Assembly: GCA_024508725.1 (NCBI GenBank)
Contig: JANINS010000004.1
Location: 514,163 to 578,162 of the forward strand
Length of the DNA: 64,000 nt
Direction: 5' to 3'
From: Chitinophagaceae bacterium
GTDB lineage: Bacteria; Bacteroidota; Bacteroidia; Chitinophagales; Chitinophagaceae
Numbering within the stretch: the stretch's first letter is position 1; every line of letters starts with the position of its first letter. Shown here in pieces: positions 1,198-61,905 of this stretch. The notes below the pieces were generated by a model. It worked only from the letters and a program-made list of their open reading frames with translations, was not told the DNA's origin and did no database searches. The position numbers and the translations under genes were made by a program.

Positions 1198-1833
1198 TTA
1201 TTTCAGGTAACTAATAAATTCCTTCCTGGGTATCATTCTGGCTCCCAAACTTTCCAAATGCGGATTGTGCACCTGGCAGTCGATCAGTTCAATTCCATTT
1301 GCAACGAGATGCTGTACATATTTAATAAAAGCATATTTACTAGCATTACTCACTTTGCTGAACATACTTTCACCGCAAAACACTTTTCCTACTCTTATGC
1401 CATATAATCCACCAACCATTTCTCCTTTATCGTAAACAGCAGCACAATGTGCATGACCCATCTTGTGTAAGGTAGAATAAGCCTCAACTATCTCATCGCT
1501 GATCCATGTTCCCCGCTGATCTTTTCTCTCCACCTGCTGGCAGTTCAAAACAACTTCAGTAAAGTGTTCATCAATCCTGAATTCAAATCTGTTTTGCTTC
1601 AGCAATTGTTTCATACTGTGACTGATCTTTAATTCATCAGGAAATATTACACATCTTGGGTCAGGACTCCACCACAACGGTATATCACCATCAAACCATG
1701 GAAAGATTCCATTTTTATAAGCCAGTAAAAGTCTGTCAATACTCAGATCACCACCGGCAGCCAGCAATCCATCTTCCAAAGATTCTTCAACAGGAGGGAA
1801 CCAGAGCTTTTCGTCGAGAATATGTAAGGGCAA
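1198..1833 (-). CDS. aat: Leucyl/phenylalanyl-tRNA--protein transferase
   Basis: 211 residues. Aat transfers Leu or Phe from aminoacyl-tRNA to N-terminal Arg or Lys of proteins, creating N-degrons. Family motifs are visible: the N-terminal FPPVEESLEDGLLAAGGDLS segment, the IFPWF and WWSPDPRCVIFP segments, and the C-terminal GNAT-like core with GGLYGIRVGKVFCGESMFS and NASK. Start ATG at 1833 matches the family N-terminus. It lies about 70 bp downstream of clpS on the same strand, so the N-degron writer and its reader are adjacent. It converges with mgsA with a zero-base gap. The upstream gap holds iterated AT-rich words. Confidence 0.95.
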   Translation of the reverse strand: MPLHILDEKLWFPPVEESLEDGLLAAGGDLSIDRLLLAYKNGIFPWFDGDIPLWWSPDPRCVIFPDELKISHSMKQLLKQNRFEFRIDEHFTEVVLNCQQVERKDQRGTWISDEIVEAYSTLHKMGHAHCAAVYDKGEMVGGLYGIRVGKVFCGESMFSKVSNASKYAFIKYVQHLVANGIELIDCQVHNPHLESLGARMIPRKEFISYLK

Positions 1834-1841
1834 TGAGGATT

Positions 1842-1906
1842 AATAATTAAAAATGAAGAATTAAGAATTAGGTCTATTACTTCTTACTTCGTACCTCGTA
1901 CTTCTG
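1842..1906. repeat. Iterated-word intergenic block between clpS and aat
   Basis: The gap consists of near-repeated words: AATTAAAAATGAAGAATTAAGAATTA, in overlapping parts, then TTACTTCTTACTTCGTACCTCGTACTTCT. The second half is the reverse complement of the GAAGTACGAGGTAAGAA type found after dnaK (24364) and pepT (61867). No gene is visible. Confidence 0.6.
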
Positions 1907-22113: not shown

Positions 22114-22446
22114 GTTCTTTGAATGCGTTATTTCATGCTCAGAACCTCCAAACGCCTGATTATAAGGTTATTTTAAAGGAGGAATTTGACCCGGAGGATA
22201 CGGTCTCATTGCTGCCCTGCGTTCGGAACGATAAAGTGCTTGCGACGCAACAGACGATGCTATGTAAAACTAAGGCTGGTATTACGTCTCGTCAATAGTC
22301 ATCATCAATTCTTAGTTGTTATTACGGTCAACTGTCAACCGTCGACGGTCAACTGTAGTCGACTGCCATTTTTTCACCTTTCCCCCTCATGGCATGATGG
22401 TTGAGCCAACAAGAGCATCTAAATTCATTAAAAATCAAAGGATAAT
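22114..22446. other. Divergent intergenic region upstream of dnaK
   Basis: A gap of about 370 bases between the metalloprotease gene and dnaK. It holds one dispersed repeat (22209-22285), then an iterated block of GTCAACTGTCAACC/GTCGACGGTCAACTG words (about 22310-22362). I see no CIRCE-type inverted repeat before dnaK and no clear TAnnTTTG element, so dnaK regulation cannot be read here. A 72-codon frame across it (22186-22404) is made of these repeats and is not called. Confidence 0.55.
22209..22285 (+). repeat. Dispersed intergenic repeat, copy 3 (GACGCAAC subtype)
   Basis: Plus-strand copy with a TTGCTG left end, GTTCGGAACG, the core GTGCTTGCGACGCAACAGACG, then ATGCTATGTAAAAC and a GGCTGGTATTACG right end. 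Confidence 0.75.
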
Positions 22447-24363
22447 ATGGCAAAGATCATTGGAATAGACCTGGGTACTACCAACAGCTGCGTGGCAGTG
22501 ATGGAAGGTAATGAACCTGTTGTGATTGCCAACGAAGAAGGTCGTCGTACAACCCCTTCTGTAGTGGCATTTTTGAAGAACGGTGAAAGAAAAGTCGGCG
22601 ATCCGGCAAAAAGACAGGCTATTACCAATCCTCAAAATACCATTACCAGTGTAAAAAGATTCATGGGTAGAAGGTTCGATGAGGTGACAGAAGAGAAGAG
22701 CCACTGGAGCTATAATGTAGCCCAGGGTGACAATAATACAGTTCGTATTGACATAGACGGTCGTTTGTACACACCGCAGGAAATTTCAGCGATGGTGCTT
22801 CAGAAAATGAAGAAAACAGCTGAAGATTATCTTGGACAGGAGGTGAAAGAAGCCGTGATCACTGTTCCGGCTTATTTTAACGATGCTCAGCGTCAGGCTA
22901 CCAAAGAAGCCGGTGAGATCGCTGGTTTGAATGTTCGTCGTATCGTGAACGAACCTACTGCCGCAGCACTTGCTTATGGTTTGGATAAAAAGCATGCTGA
23001 CCAAAAGATAGCTGTGTTCGACCTTGGTGGTGGTACATTCGATATCTCTATTCTTGAGTTGGGTGATGGTGTGTTCGAAGTAAAATCTACCAATGGTGAT
23101 ACACACCTGGGTGGTGATGACTTCGATAAAGTGATCATGGATTGGTTAGCTGAAGAGTTCAAGAACGAAGAAGCGATCGACCTGAGAAAAGACCCGATGG
23201 CTTTACAGCGTTTGAAAGAAAGTGCTGAGAAAGCAAAAGTTGAGTTGAGCTCTTCTACAGAAACCGAGATCAACCTTCCTTACATCACAGCGGTGGATGG
23301 TGTACCTAAACACTTGGTAAAGAAATTAACAAGAGCAAAGTTTGAAGCTTTGGCTGATACCCTTTTCCAGCGTTGCTTAAAACCTTGCGAGGCTGCATTG
23401 AAAGATGCAGGATATTCAACTTCACAGATCGATGAAGTGATCCTGGTAGGTGGTTCTACACGTATCCCTAAGGTTCAGGAAGTAGTAGAGAAGTTCTTCG
23501 GACGTAAGCCACACAAAGGTGTAAACCCTGATGAGGTAGTAGCAATCGGTGCGGCAATTCAAGGTGCGGTATTGACTGGTGAGGTGAAAGATGTGTTGTT
23601 ATTGGATGTTACGCCGTTAACACTCGGTATCGAAACAATGGGTGGTGTGTTAACTCCGATGATCCCTGCTAATACAACGATCCCAACAAAGAAATCAGAA
23701 GTATTTTCAACAGCAAGTGATAACCAGCCAGGCGTACAAATTCATGTATTGCAGGGTGAACGTTCACTGGCAAAAGACAATAAGAGCTTAGGTGTGTTTA
23801 ACCTTGATGGTATTCCACCAGCTCCGAGAGGTGTACCGCAGATCGAAGTAACATTTGATATCGATGCCAATGGTCTGTTACATGTAAGTGCGAAAGACAA
23901 AGGCACCGGTAAAGAGCAGAAGATCAGAATTGAAGCAGGAAGTGGTTTGAGCAAAGATGAGATCGAGAAAATGAAAGCGGAGGCGAAAGCCAATGAAGCT
24001 ACTGATAAGGCAGCGAAAGAAAAGATCGAGAAACTAAATCAAGCTGATAGCCTGATCTTCCAGACTGAAAAGCAGTTGAAAGAGTTTGGAGATAAGATCC
24101 CGGCTGATAAAAAAGCACCTATTGAATCTGCATTAGAAAAGCTGAAAGAAGCTCACAAGAACCAGGATGTTGCAGCAGTAGATACAGCAATGACTGAAAT
24201 GAACACTGCATGGACTGCAGCCAGTGAAGAGATTTACAAAGCACAAGCTGAACAAGGTGGAGGAAATCCAACAGATGGAGCACAGCAAGGAAATACTGGA
24301 GGTTCACAGGGAGGAAATGCCGGAGATCATGTAGAGGATGCACAGTTTGAAGAAGTGAAGTAA
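22447..24363 (+). CDS. dnaK: Chaperone protein DnaK (Hsp70)
   Basis: 638 residues, the usual length. ATP-dependent cytoplasmic chaperone working with DnaJ and GrpE. The N-terminal ATPase domain has [15 protein letters not shown], the FMGRR loop and [13 protein letters not shown]. The conserved linker ([19 protein letters not shown]) leads into the substrate-binding beta domain and helical lid, ending in a Gly/Gln-rich tail and EEVK, a variant of the EEVD-like end. grpE and dnaJ are not adjacent. Downstream are a terminator and the 21-bp repeat array. Confidence 0.98.
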
Positions 24364-24398
24364 GAAGTACGAGGTAAGAAATACGAAGTACGAAATAA
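24364..24398 (+). repeat. Iterated-word block after dnaK
   Basis: GAAGTACGAGGTAAGAAATACGAAGTACGAAAT, in overlapping words, directly follows the dnaK stop. Reverse-complement relatives lie at 1876-1906 and a same-strand relative at 61867-61905. Confidence 0.6.
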
Positions 24399-24399
24399 A

Positions 24400-24427
24400 A
24401 AAGCCCTTACAGAGATGTGAGGGCTTT
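24400..24427 (+). terminator. Terminator after dnaK
   Basis: Stem AAAGCCCT/AGGGCTTT with a 12-nt loop, followed by CTT and T-rich sequence. Confidence 0.75.
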
Positions 24428-24479
24428 CTTATTTAATAAGTTTTGATTATAGGTTTAAATTCTAATAATGCTTACCATT

Positions 24480-24752
24480 ACCCACCATTATCCACTACCA
24501 TTACCCTCCAATCGATTCAATCATCAACCAATCACAATAAAACTACATCCAACCAAATTAAATGTACACTCAATTAAATAGGCACTGCCACTAATTCGAT
24601 CAGATGTACCCATTAATTGATCGACAGTACGCTGTGTTTGATTGTGAGTTTATATTATCTGATCGACAGTACATCTTATTTGAATCGGAGTACTTCAGAT
24701 CAATCTATAGGTACACATCATTTGATTCAGAATATCATCAATTCGATTCAGC
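24480..24752. repeat. 21-bp phased degenerate tandem array (about 13 units)
   Basis: Units can be written end to end without gaps at 24480, 24501, 24522, 24543, 24564, 24585, 24606, 24627, 24648, 24669, 24690, 24711 and 24732, all exactly 21 bases. Five units (24564, 24606, 24627, 24669, 24690) and the unit at 24711 start with GTAC. GAT recurs at unit positions 14-16 in units 24501, 24585, 24606, 24627, 24648, 24711 and 24732 (GAA in 24669). The best-conserved form is GTAC-nnn-T-n-ATTT-GATCGACA. A frame at 24604-24861 reads it as heptads such as QYAVFDC and QYILFES, but the period continues upstream where that frame is closed, so I treat it as non-coding. Function unknown. Confidence 0.8.
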
Positions 24753-24869
24753 CGACCAATATAAAAGCATTGTGTGCTCTTTAACCGCATTCGCCCCCTT
24801 ACATTGTCGTATTGTCCACCGCCGGGCCATTATATTCAACAGTAGCTTTACAAGTAAATAAATGCCATC

Positions 24870-25358
24870 ATGCAAACCACCAGCACACGTACACAAGCTT
24901 TACTCACTTTATTCGATTATCAAACAACATTTTTCGCTAAAGCACTGGATGGAATATCGGAAGACGATATGTACAACCGTTTGCATACCGAAGCCAATCA
25001 CCCGGCATGGCTGGCTGGTTCTTTGGTGCATCAGCGTTTTATGATGGCTTCAGAAATGCAACACGAGGTAAAACAAACCAAAGGCGAACTATTCCATAAC
25101 AACAAAGGAATTCAGGAAGGAGAACGTTATCCATCCATCCAGGAATACATCAACGACTGGAACAACATCACACCCATAGCCCGTGAAGCACTGGTTAAAA
25201 TTGATGACCAGAAGCTCGACAGCTTATTCGATATGGGCCAGATGCAAATGCCGTATTACAACATGATCTGCTTTACCATTTACCGTGAAGCCAGTATAAT
25301 CGGACAACTGGCTTTATGGAGAAGATTACTGGGTTACCCTGCAATGAAATATGATTGA
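24870..25358 (+). CDS. DinB-family (YfiT-like) protein
   Basis: 162 residues, cytoplasmic. The pattern of a four-helix DinB/YfiT fold is visible: an N-terminal helix with TRTQALLTLFDYQTTFFAKAL, then NHPAWLAGSLVHQRFMMA with His residues in the positions used for metal binding in this superfamily, and a C-terminal helix ending LALWRRLLGYPAMKYD. Members bind a divalent metal and often act as thiol-dependent transferases; no specific reaction can be assigned. It lies just beyond the 21-bp array, with no recognised promoter match. An ATG at 24862 is in another frame. Converges with the next gene 4 bases away. Confidence 0.7.
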   Translation: MQTTSTRTQALLTLFDYQTTFFAKALDGISEDDMYNRLHTEANHPAWLAGSLVHQRFMMASEMQHEVKQTKGELFHNNKGIQEGERYPSIQEYINDWNNITPIAREALVKIDDQKLDSLFDMGQMQMPYYNMICFTIYREASIIGQLALWRRLLGYPAMKYD

Positions 25359-29022: not shown

Positions 29023-29670
29023 TCAAAGGCTCTTCAACTTCGCAATCATTCCTTTTGGATCGCTTGCACTAAAAACTGTATTTCCCGCTACCAATACATC
29101 AGCACCGGCTGCAACAATTTCCGGAGCATTTTCAAGCGTCACACCACCATCGATCTCGATCAATACATTCGCTCCACGTTCATCGATCATCTTACGAAGC
29201 TGTTTGATCTTTTCAAGTGTGTGGGGAATGAATTTTTGTCCGCCAAAACCCGGATTCACACTCATCATACACACCACATCAATATCATGTAGAACATCTG
29301 CTAATGTACTAACCGGGGTATGTGGATTGATAGCAACGCCAGCTTTCATTCCCAGGCTTTTGATCTGCTGGATATTTCTATGGAGATGCGTACAGGCCTC
29401 AATGTGTACAGTAAGTATATCAGCTCCGGCTTTCTTAAAAGCTTCTGTAAGATGTTCAGGCGTTAAGATCATCAGGTGAACATCACAAACTTTATTCGTG
29501 GCTTTCCTGATCTTCTCTATCACCGGAATACCGAAACTGATGTTTGGGACAAATTGACCATCCATCACATCTAAATGAAACCACTCTGCTTCACTTTCGT
29601 TAAGCATGGTACATTCTCTTTCAAGATTCAGAAAATCGGAAGCAAGCAAAGAAGGAGCAACAATAGCCAT
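29023..29670 (-). CDS. rpe: Ribulose-phosphate 3-epimerase
   Basis: 215 residues, a TIM-barrel enzyme of the pentose phosphate pathway interconverting ribulose-5-phosphate and xylulose-5-phosphate. Visible: APSLLASDFLNLERE at the N-terminus, the metal-site segment WFHLDVMDGQFVPNISFG, CDVHLMI, the signature VVCMMSVNPGFGGQKFI, and VLIEIDGGVTLENAPEIVAAGADVLV with the phosphate-binding end. Convergent with the small membrane protein gene, with no intergenic base. Confidence 0.96.
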   Translation of the reverse strand: MAIVAPSLLASDFLNLERECTMLNESEAEWFHLDVMDGQFVPNISFGIPVIEKIRKATNKVCDVHLMILTPEHLTEAFKKAGADILTVHIEACTHLHRNIQQIKSLGMKAGVAINPHTPVSTLADVLHDIDVVCMMSVNPGFGGQKFIPHTLEKIKQLRKMIDERGANVLIEIDGGVTLENAPEIVAAGADVLVAGNTVFSASDPKGMIAKLKSL

Positions 29671-29767
29671 TGAGGTTTAAAATTTGAGATTCGAAATTAA
29701 GAAAGGAGAAATAACAACGCAGTATCAATTATTCACTATTCACTAGTCACCATTGATCATTCACCTA
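29671..29767. repeat. Iterated-word block between the TPR lipoprotein gene and rpe
   Basis: The 97-base gap consists of words such as AATTTGAGATTCGAAATTAAG, then ATTCACTATTCACTAGTCACC and GATCATTCACC. No promoter consensus seen for rpe, which may be read from the upstream gene. Confidence 0.5.
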
Positions 29768-30577
29768 CTAACTCACCTGAACACCTAACCTTGTCAGTGC
29801 CTCGGATGATTCTTTCAGACCCGGGTCTAGTCTTAAAGATTGCTCATACATATGAATAGCATCCTGTGTTCTACCCAGGGCTTCCATGCATCTTGCCTGG
29901 TAATAAAATGCATCGGCATAGCTGGGTTCTACCGTTCCGGCAGTCTGGAATATCTTCAAAGCTTCAGGAAACTTCTTCTGATCGAAATACAGCAATCCTT
30001 TTTCAATATACGCTTCCATAAATTTCAGATCCTGCGTAATGCACCTGTCAAAAAGTTGTTCGGCCATTCTCGTATTGCCTTTTCTTGCATGATATATTCC
30101 GGCGATAAAATCGCATTCAGCTAAAGTACGGTTATCGAATATTTGCCTGGCCACAGCATTCACCAGCAATAAAGCAGTATCGCTTTTTCTTTCAGCATAT
30201 AAATTAGCAAGGTAAAGTTGTGCATCAACGGCAGGGTAGATGTTGATCGATCTTGCATAAGCGTAAATAGCTCCACTCGTATCTTTCGCTTTCTCCAGCA
30301 ACATTCCCTTTCTCATCCATACGGCATTATTCGTGCTGTCTCTTTTCAAAACAGAATCTACCTGTGCAATACCTTCCTTGAACATGCCAAGGCTATCGTA
30401 TGCATCAGCCAGTCGTAAACGCAAACCCGTGCTATCAGGAGATTTCTTTAATCTTTCCTGCATGTCTTTTACATATCCAGGTAATTCATTGGCTTTGCCG
30501 TTATCGCCGGTTTCTTTTTCGTCTTTACACGCAACGATCAGCAAAACACAACATACAACAGGTAGGATGTATCTCAT
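29768..30577 (-). CDS. TPR-repeat lipoprotein
   Basis: 269 residues. The N-terminus MRYILPVVCCVLLIVAC ends in a lipobox (IVAC), followed by an acidic linker, so it is a periplasm-facing lipoprotein. At least five TPR units follow from about residue 38 (LRLRLADAYDSLGMFKEG, AIYAYARSINIYPAVDAQLYLANLYAE, FMEAYIEKGLLYFDQKKFPEALKIFQTAG, ADAFYYQARCMEALGRTQDAIHMYEQSLRLDPG, each in part). Probably a protein-protein scaffold in the envelope; partner unknown. The promoter TACATTTG lies exactly 4 nt before the ATG. Confidence 0.82.
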   Translation of the reverse strand: MRYILPVVCCVLLIVACKDEKETGDNGKANELPGYVKDMQERLKKSPDSTGLRLRLADAYDSLGMFKEGIAQVDSVLKRDSTNNAVWMRKGMLLEKAKDTSGAIYAYARSINIYPAVDAQLYLANLYAERKSDTALLLVNAVARQIFDNRTLAECDFIAGIYHARKGNTRMAEQLFDRCITQDLKFMEAYIEKGLLYFDQKKFPEALKIFQTAGTVEPSYADAFYYQARCMEALGRTQDAIHMYEQSLRLDPGLKESSEALTRLGVQVS

Positions 30578-56975: not shown

Positions 56976-57158
56976 TTACTTCTTCTTAGCGGCTTTCTTA
57001 GCAGCTTTTTTAGGAGCGGCTTTCTTAGCGGCTTTTTTAGGAGCAGCTTTCTTTGCAGCCTTCTTAGGAGCAGCTTTCTTTGCAGCTTTTTTAGGAGCAG
57101 CTTTCTTTGCAGCTTTTTTAGGAGCAGCTTTCTTAGCGGCTTTCTTTGCAGTTGCCAT
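56976..57158 (-). CDS. Lys/Ala/Pro-rich histone H1-like protein with 27-bp repeats
   Basis: 60 residues composed almost only of Lys, Ala and Pro. After MATAKKAAKKA come five copies of the nonapeptide unit A-P-K-K-A-A-K-K-A, ending AKKAAKKK. It resembles the C-terminal tail of histone H1 and bacterial Hc/AlgP-type proteins, and should bind DNA or RNA non-specifically. The DNA repeats with a 27-bp period, so copy number could vary by slippage. It sits between rpmA and polX on the same strand, with its own terminator. Reverse-strand frames across it are repeat artefacts. Confidence 0.78.
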   Translation of the reverse strand: MATAKKAAKKAAPKKAAKKAAPKKAAKKAAPKKAAKKAAPKKAAKKAAPKKAAKKAAKKK

Positions 57159-60612: not shown

Positions 60613-61869
60613 ATGTTGGCGAATTACCATTTTACTGCAGCAGAACGATTGATGAGGTATGTTCAGATAGACACACAAAGTGATCCGCAAAGCAGTACAC
60701 AACCTACCACGCAAAAGCAAAAAGATCTTTCAAAGCTTTTAGCCGATGAACTAAAGCAAATAGGAATTGCAGATGCTCACTTGGACGAGTTTGGATATGT
60801 ATATGCAACTATTCCATCCAATACAAATAAACAGGTTCCGGTGATTTGTTTTTGTGCTCATGTTGATACTGCACCTGATGCCAGCGGCACGAATGTGAAG
60901 CCAATACTGCACGAACAATACGATGGAAAAGATATTGTGTTGCCCGATGATAGTTCGCAAGTCATCAGCACATCTGTTTATCCATATTTGAAAGAACATA
61001 TTGGTAACTCAATCATAACAGCAAGTGGGTTGACATTGCTTGGTGGAGATGATAAAGCCGGCGTTTCTGTGATCATGGATATGGCAAACTATCTCATTGA
61101 TCATCCTGAAGTGAAACACGGAACGATTAAAATACTTTTCACACCTGATGAAGAAGTTGGAAAAGGAACTGCAAAAGTTGATCTGAAAAAATTAGGAGCT
61201 GATTTTGGCTACACGCTAGATGGTGGTGCTTTGGGTGATTTTGAAGATGAAACTTTCAGTGCTGATGGTGTAACGATAGATATTCACGGTGTGATCTCTC
61301 ATCCCGGAACTGCAAAAGATAAATTGGTGAATGCCTTAAAGATTGCAGGAGAGATATTGGCTGCTTTACCAAAGAATGAGTTTAGTCCGGAAACAACAGA
61401 AGGCAGAGAAGGCTTTATACATCCTGTTCGTGTGAATGGCATTGCAGAAAAAGCAACAATAGAATTCATTGTTCGTGATTTTATCACAGCTAAGCTGAAA
61501 GATCATGAAGACAGGCTAAGATCAATTGCAGAAGCAGTAATGAAGAATTATCCAAAAGCTTCGATGGAGTTTAAAGTGCAGGAGCAATATAGAAATATGA
61601 AAGAAGTGCTGGATAAGCATCCACAGGTTTCTGCCAATGCAGCAGAAGCATACAAACGTGCTGGTGTTACATTAAAGAATGAACCAATACGTGGTGGAAC
61701 GGATGGCAGCCGATTGAGTTTTATGGGACTGCCTTGTCCGAATATTTTTACTGGTATGCAGGCAATTCACAGCAAACACGAATGGATCGGAGTAAGAGAT
61801 ATGAACAAAGCTGTTGAGGTATTGGTAGAACTGGTGAAAGTTTGGGAAGAGAAAGGGGAGAAGAAGTAA
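60613..61869 (+). CDS. pepT: Peptidase T (tripeptide aminopeptidase)
   Basis: 418 residues from ATG 60613 (MLANYHFTAAERLMRYVQID); a frame from 60562 would overlap the divergent gene. M20 family cytoplasmic di-zinc aminopeptidase releasing the N-terminal residue of tripeptides. Metal-site motifs: CAHVDTAPD, LGGDDKAGV, FTPDEEVGKG, YTLDGGALGDFEDE, and the C-terminal RGGTDGSRLSFMGLPCPNIFTG with IHSKHEW. Length normal. TACTTTG (one base short of consensus) lies 13-20 nt before the ATG. An iterated-word block and a dispersed repeat follow. Confidence 0.95.
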   Translation: MLANYHFTAAERLMRYVQIDTQSDPQSSTQPTTQKQKDLSKLLADELKQIGIADAHLDEFGYVYATIPSNTNKQVPVICFCAHVDTAPDASGTNVKPILHEQYDGKDIVLPDDSSQVISTSVYPYLKEHIGNSIITASGLTLLGGDDKAGVSVIMDMANYLIDHPEVKHGTIKILFTPDEEVGKGTAKVDLKKLGADFGYTLDGGALGDFEDETFSADGVTIDIHGVISHPGTAKDKLVNALKIAGEILAALPKNEFSPETTEGREGFIHPVRVNGIAEKATIEFIVRDFITAKLKDHEDRLRSIAEAVMKNYPKASMEFKVQEQYRNMKEVLDKHPQVSANAAEAYKRAGVTLKNEPIRGGTDGSRLSFMGLPCPNIFTGMQAIHSKHEWIGVRDMNKAVEVLVELVKVWEEKGEKK

Positions 61870-61905
61870 GAGGTAAGAAGTAAGAAGTAAGAAGTAAGCA
61901 TTCTT
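61867..61905 (+). repeat. Iterated-word block after pepT
   Basis: AAGAGGTAAGAAGTAAGAAG and its continuation AAGTAAGAAGTAAGC form a 7-bp (AAGAAGT/GTAAGAA) iteration straddling the pepT stop, related to the block after dnaK. Confidence 0.6.

Follow-up and report, generated by a model that had tools for sequence, protein, structure and literature searches.

A diverged array of 21-bp units downstream of dnaK and its dispersed intergenic counterparts in a Bacteroidota genome

The window, a 64,000-nt stretch of a Chitinophagaceae genome (contig C4, positions 514163-578162; 3.88 Mb in 8 contigs), carries on its plus strand a dnaK gene (HSP70; 22447..24363), the product of which is ~80-90% identical to DnaK of family relatives. 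Its stop codon is overlapped by a 7-bp array of GAAGTAA, GAAGTAC and GAAATAC units (24357..24398, plus strand), which was found by Tandem Repeats Finder and belongs to a short-period class common in this genome and in the family, and this is followed by a likely intrinsic terminator of dnaK, as read from the sequence (24398..24434, plus strand; AAAAAAGCCCTTAC...GTGAGGGCTTTCTT). The array of 21-bp units studied here (24499..24750, no strand given; C4:538661-538912) sits past this terminator. Its downstream neighbour is a 162-aa gene (24870..25358, plus strand) with no significant match in Pfam or NCBIfam, and a search of genome contigs with this gene led to one Pedobacter locus, uninformative for the array. 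Short 7-bp arrays are present at several places in the window (1819-1905, 22327-22356, 24357-24398, 29661-29770 and 61861-61898), with units as varied as GAAGTAA, GTCAACT, TATTCAC and others, and they are frequent in intergenic DNA, both in this genome and in relatives from the family, G011 for example. Tandem Repeats Finder also detected a 27-bp tandem array at 56983-57151 (AGCAGCTTTCTTAGCAGCTTTTTTAGG), which is probably coding on the minus strand (Ala/Lys-rich, with a period divisible by three).

The array after dnaK is real, a row of 21-base DNA units that have worn down. Starting at 24499+21k, 12 units of exactly 21 bp follow one another with no indel needed, and in their consensus, unit positions 3-6 read GTAC and 12-18 read ATTTGAT. 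The original prediction had laid out 13 gapless blocks from 24480; the gapless, exact register holds, while the number and extent had to be corrected to 12 units at 24499-24750, because the block at 24478-24498 scores -10.4 and does not fit the array. All six GTAC tetranucleotides that had drawn attention to the region (24564, 24606, 24627, 24669, 24690 and 24711) are present. The self-match of 24480-24752 amounts to 0.480 at lag 21, 0.489 at lag 42 and 0.452 at lag 63; at lag 21, dinucleotide shuffles give 0.277 (z=7.1) and reached the observed value in 0 of 2000 cases, so the 21-base autocorrelation peak that had been proposed as a check is borne out, and the best lag of 5-40 was likewise never reached by shuffles. 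When each unit was scored with itself left out, 11 of the 12 fell at offset 0 of 21 possible. The sole exception, the unit at 24688..24708, carries its hexamer as the reverse complement (ATCAAT for ATTGAT), with a best forward offset of 3 and a reverse-complement match at dyad offset 8. Mean pairwise identity of the units is 0.47, with 38% of positions off consensus, and because units average only 47% alike, Tandem Repeats Finder did not report the array. A DNA similarity search of the same genome and 40 relatives returned nothing beyond the window itself, and an Rfam search of the array yielded nothing near the gathering score. Within the 64-kb window, it is the only strong noncoding 21-bp array.

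Twenty-one bases equal seven codons, and one open frame of 85 aa (24604..24861, plus strand) spans the last seven units, which would be compatible with a decayed or small gene for a heptad-repeat protein. We consider this very improbable. None of the six frames of the dnaK array is free of stop codons, and the same is true of most of the other arrays described below; the best-conserved columns include the wobble positions C6, A12 and T18; a flip from TTTGAT to ATCAAA would turn Phe-Asp into Ile-Lys; and the frame has no Pfam or NCBIfam match. Moreover, the 21-bp phase runs on upstream of the frame through three stops, confirming what had been noted from the sequence at the outset. With stops in every frame and wobble columns among those best conserved, the 85-aa frame is judged not to be a gene, and the feature is, as originally proposed, one of the DNA and not of a repeat protein.

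The dnaK array is best explained as a member of a family of arrays that are spread over the intergenic DNA of this Bacteroidota genome. In a periodicity scan that ignores sequence, covering 2.075 Mb of the 3.88-Mb genome with 248 kb of noncoding DNA, noncoding arrays fall into discrete periods: 25 of 7 bp, 8 of 8 bp, 7 of 11 bp (one of them mixed 10/11) and 6 of 21 bp, with one or two arrays at each of a few other periods; the array on contig C2 is counted among both the 7-bp and the 21-bp arrays, its strongest period being 21. Markov-resampled intergenic DNA (351 kb) contained no array of period 9-35. The suggestion that the same genome be searched for other 21-bp phased arrays thus proved fruitful, with at least six in the genome, all six of those found being intergenic, with 6-12 units each and an exact 21-bp period. 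Besides the dnaK array, these are the groEL array (C4:592246-592434), where groEL converges with a YhhN gene; the sdaA array (C4:634267-634477), after a serine dehydratase gene and between converging genes; the L108 array (C4:735477-735750, L108:15477-15750), after an AHSA1-domain gene; the GH20/prfB array (C4:925101-925289), flanked by two converging genes, prfB and one for a GH20 hexosaminidase; and the C2 array (C2:281541-281687), between diverging genes. Weak 21-bp regions at C4:390k, 449k, 721k, 941k and 1004k, which are heptamer- or coding-like, were left out. The L108 array consists of inverted halves, its first four units being opposite in orientation to the last eight; the idea that this inversion meaningfully keeps the 21-bp phase was dropped, as the offset depends on the chosen frame. 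A profile built from the dnaK array (R1) retrieved two further arrays from the genome with E below 0.005, those at GH20/prfB and on C2, and its weak third match is a different 21-bp array, that of sdaA; a model built from the latter (R2) found only itself above noise in the same genome and 30 relatives. Together, the six arrays span 1239 bp, with about 379 mismatches to consensus and one indel, a 1-bp insertion in the sdaA array, an indel count that is biased because the scan seeks ungapped periodicity.

Several further features of these repeats were recorded. Three of the six 21-bp arrays adjoin genes of chaperone type (dnaK, groEL and the AHSA1-domain gene, at C4:538.7, 592.3 and 735.5 kb), which may be chance. 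The 11-bp arrays (C4:1040781, L163:781; C1:11102, L202:1102; C1:110298, L204:298; C4:968359, L120:8359; and others, including the mixed one) include some in which the units switch to the reverse complement halfway, and this class is absent from the sampled relatives. A noncoding array of about five units of about 31 bp, with the palindromic core CCACGACCTGAAGGTCGTGG, lies at C2:243740 (L218:3740-3930).

Four of the arrays, dnaK, groEL, GH20/prfB and C2, share the unit GTAC-N5-ATNNNAT-N5. With GTAC set at positions 1-4, their consensus units are gTACa....ATT.GATT.a.A for dnaK, GTAC.c...ATcAaATt..a. for GH20/prfB, GTACtcTTtATtT.ATa..a. for C2 and GT.G.TaATAt..GAT.gGAa for groEL. Against column-permuted arrays, which retain periodicity and composition, the sharing is significant for every pair in both directions (p<=0.03, most <=0.001); with respect to these four, sdaA is borderline and L108 unrelated. 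The arrays also agree in which columns resist change. Under a realigned null, column conservation is correlated between dnaK and GH20/prfB (r=0.67, p=0.003) and shared between dnaK and groEL (p=0.025) and between C2 and groEL (p=0.035), the remaining three pairs of the four giving p of about 0.09, and the spread of conservation from column to column exceeds that of a neutral star model (p=0.049 for dnaK, 0.009 for GH20/prfB and <0.001 for groEL). A few columns are held while the rest drift, and the held columns are identical between arrays. Hence, the original formulation that spacing rather than sequence is kept is right about the register and too strong in making spacing the only thing kept, as the GTAC and AT---AT columns are kept as well. 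The coincidence of conserved columns between arrays is the strongest argument that each unit is recognized, and part of this agreement could come from duplication history.

The units of these arrays are, in addition, partly symmetrical. Those of dnaK and GH20/prfB match the reverse complement of their consensus at one nearly constant offset, with dyad centres at GTAC and ATNNNAT, 10.5 bp apart, and in GH20/prfB the central hexamer flips at the dyad, some units reading TTTGAT and others ATCAAA. By column permutation, dyad symmetry is significant in dnaK (p=0.006), GH20/prfB (p=0.0002), C2 (p=0.042) and sdaA (p=0.013), and was not found in groEL (p=0.41) or, at significance, in L108 (0.09). Constant phase and conserved dyad columns, as in a phased multi-site array, therefore coincide in dnaK and GH20/prfB, and groEL has the former features without the dyad.

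Self-complementary units of this kind would also suit structured RNA, with the arrays transcribed as 3' regions that fold into long or serial hairpins. L108 does fold as one giant hairpin (z=-5.0/-3.7 for the two strands), and GH20/prfB (-2.5/-3.2) and sdaA (-1.9/-3.1) tend the same way, but folding is weak or absent in dnaK (-2.0/-0.4), groEL (-0.6/-0.7) and C2 (-0.3/-0.2), the array after dnaK is downstream of that gene's terminator, and Rfam offers no match near the gathering score; we regard an RNA role for the arrays as improbable. Intrinsically curved or bent DNA, which had been raised as one possible meaning of a period of two helical turns (21 bp), fares worse. A/T steps are phased at 10.5 bp in sdaA (p=0.004) and in the right half of L108 (p=0.005, both against shuffles), but show no significant phasing in dnaK, groEL, GH20/prfB and C2 (p=0.16-0.77), and no array rises above the column-permuted null. 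In the dnaK array, WW power at 10.5 bp is 0.50 (p=0.59 against shuffles), and because its A/T steps are unphased at this spacing, it is not curved DNA; for the arrays at large, curvature is an explanation that we find hard to credit.

The reading we favour, to which we assign a little less than an even chance, is that the arrays form a family of scattered sites, phased and weakly palindromic, to which a putative dimeric protein binds cooperatively. The exact 21-bp register over 12 units despite 38% divergence from consensus speaks for it, as does the number of 21-bp arrays, six in 248 kb of noncoding DNA, where any other period above 11 has one or two at most and the null has none. A unit of the dnaK family would be a weak palindromic site with two dyads 10.5 bp apart, and this spacing, together with the 21-bp period, would place all sites on one side of the helix, where a dimeric DNA-binding protein could occupy adjacent units cooperatively. 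Poor single sites would be tolerated because spacing sums the binding energy, and selection would purge phase-breaking indels while tolerating most substitutions. The most likely role of such arrays would be architectural, as nucleoprotein patches in intergenic DNA, often between converging genes and mostly in the terminus half, and not the regulation of single genes. For the dnaK array, candidate protein boxes on one DNA face, as first suggested, are still the best reading. Against this reading, the units of sdaA and L108 differ, which makes it hard to see a single sequence-specific protein acting at every one of the six arrays; the groEL array has no dyad (p=0.41) and retains a residual 7-bp period; and neither the dnaK nor the groEL site of family relatives has an array, nor does the genus relative G001 (76% complete) show a family member.

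The abundance of 7-, 8- and 11-bp arrays in the genome points to a general array-making tendency as an alternative. In the main rival reading, the 21-bp arrays would be functionless, decayed minisatellites, their units multiplied through slippage or unequal exchange; a few would have been copied elsewhere, and all would since have drifted. We hold such a neutral origin and decay to be nearly as likely as protein binding, and a serious contender that falls well short of an even chance. It would account for the many noncoding arrays of periods 7, 8 and 11 here and of periods 7 and 8 in relatives, for the groEL array merging in phase with a heptamer stretch, for the residual signals of 7 bp in groEL (p=0.017) and of 10 bp in sdaA (p=0.001) and in the left half of L108 (p=0.009), which are what higher-order repeats built from shorter units should leave, and for the lack of conservation of the arrays in relatives. 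Heptamer arrays are, moreover, known from Bacteroidetes and other bacteria (PMC4679880, PMC4692102). What a minisatellite leaves unexplained is why the length is 21 rather than 14, 28 or another, why separate arrays agree in the columns that resist change, and why there is one indel per about 379 substitutions. The two readings are compatible, as amplification may create arrays and binding may keep them.

Relatives bear on the age of the arrays. In the family members examined, dnaK is not followed by an array, and none lies downstream of groEL in 24 loci; period-21 matches near groEL in relatives are on the upstream (groES) side. A scan of about 111 kb of relatives' noncoding DNA plus the groEL loci gave noncoding arrays of period 7 (16) and period 8 (7), and none of 11 or 21. 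In the one genus relative, G001 (76% complete), profile R1 finds no family member, and none beside prfB; its prfB is 94% identical, and a different contig carries the GH20 gene there. As no counterpart occurs in the relatives examined, the arrays are either recent on the scale of the family or evolving too fast to be followed.

The chromosomal position of the arrays offers a further lead. Leading strands usually carry an excess of G, so that a peak of cumulative GC skew would mark the terminus; on C4, the skew has its maximum at about 600-680 kb, and of the dif-like sites in the 1.675 Mb searched, the best (CTTTCTTATAATTTATATTATGTTAAAT) is intergenic at C4:809,741 (L112:9741). The skew turn and the dif-like site suggest that this is the terminus side of the chromosome, and with dnaA on another contig (C1), the earlier idea of an origin-like site is not upheld; an iteron origin is excluded, the units being too diverged and no initiator gene being adjacent. 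Of the six 21-bp arrays, five are no more than 271 kb away from the dif-like site (C4:538-925 kb, in a sample of 53% of the genome), compared with 8 of 39 arrays of other classes in the same stretch, a contrast with p of about 0.005 by hand calculation for a stretch chosen post hoc, which makes the clustering a suggestive lead. A bolder proposal, which we think unlikely, is a chromosome-organizing system of this Bacteroidota lineage, in which a putative dimeric protein would assemble on two-turn-phased weak palindromes near the terminus, spacing holding most of the information and sequence being free to drift.

Arrays that keep spacing and lose sequence evade both similarity searches and repeat finders, as Tandem Repeats Finder's silence on the dnaK array illustrates. 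Should a protein read them, they would reveal a bacterial nucleoprotein patch coded mainly by phase and provide an entry to Bacteroidota chromosome architecture; should they be neutral, a mutational mechanism would still have to account for the preference for a length of exactly 21 bp.

Among known systems, iterons are direct repeats of plasmid origins, about 17-22 bp long and bound by Rep on one DNA face. The 21-bp arrays resemble them in consisting of direct repeats in phase, each about two helical turns long. Iterons are, however, nearly identical to one another, confined to one origin and next to a rep gene, whereas the arrays are found on the chromosome at six or more places beside ordinary genes, and the units of the dnaK array, which is flanked by dnaK and the 162-aa gene without family match, have a mean identity of 0.47. 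The matS sites of the MatP system are dispersed over a macrodomain, the terminus region of Escherichia coli. The arrays may resemble these in that their short palindromic sites lie dispersed near the terminus (five of six close to the dif-like site, a post hoc observation from 53% of the genome), whereas matS are single short sites and not arrays. REPs are high-copy intergenic palindromes of 20-40 bp with a shared tag (PMC3733652); they resemble the 21-bp arrays as palindromic repeats in intergenic DNA, but the latter have weak dyads, a phased arrangement and array-specific sequence. Direct repeats of the TAACTGA heptamer form arrays in intergenic DNA of Beggiatoaceae, Cyanobacteria and some Bacteroidetes (PMC4679880), and in the genome studied here, too, heptamer arrays occur beside 21-bp ones. 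The dnaK array stands apart from the 7-bp class, its lag-7 match of 0.224 being below background (column-permuted p=0.94), and among the 21-bp arrays a significant 7-bp residue is seen in groEL only (p=0.017). As in the heptamer arrays (PMC4679880), the 21-bp repeats are intergenic, tandem, dispersed in a bacterial genome and patchy among relatives, but their units are 21 bp long and strongly diverged, and whereas the heptamers lie just before start codons, several of the arrays described here lie between converging genes.
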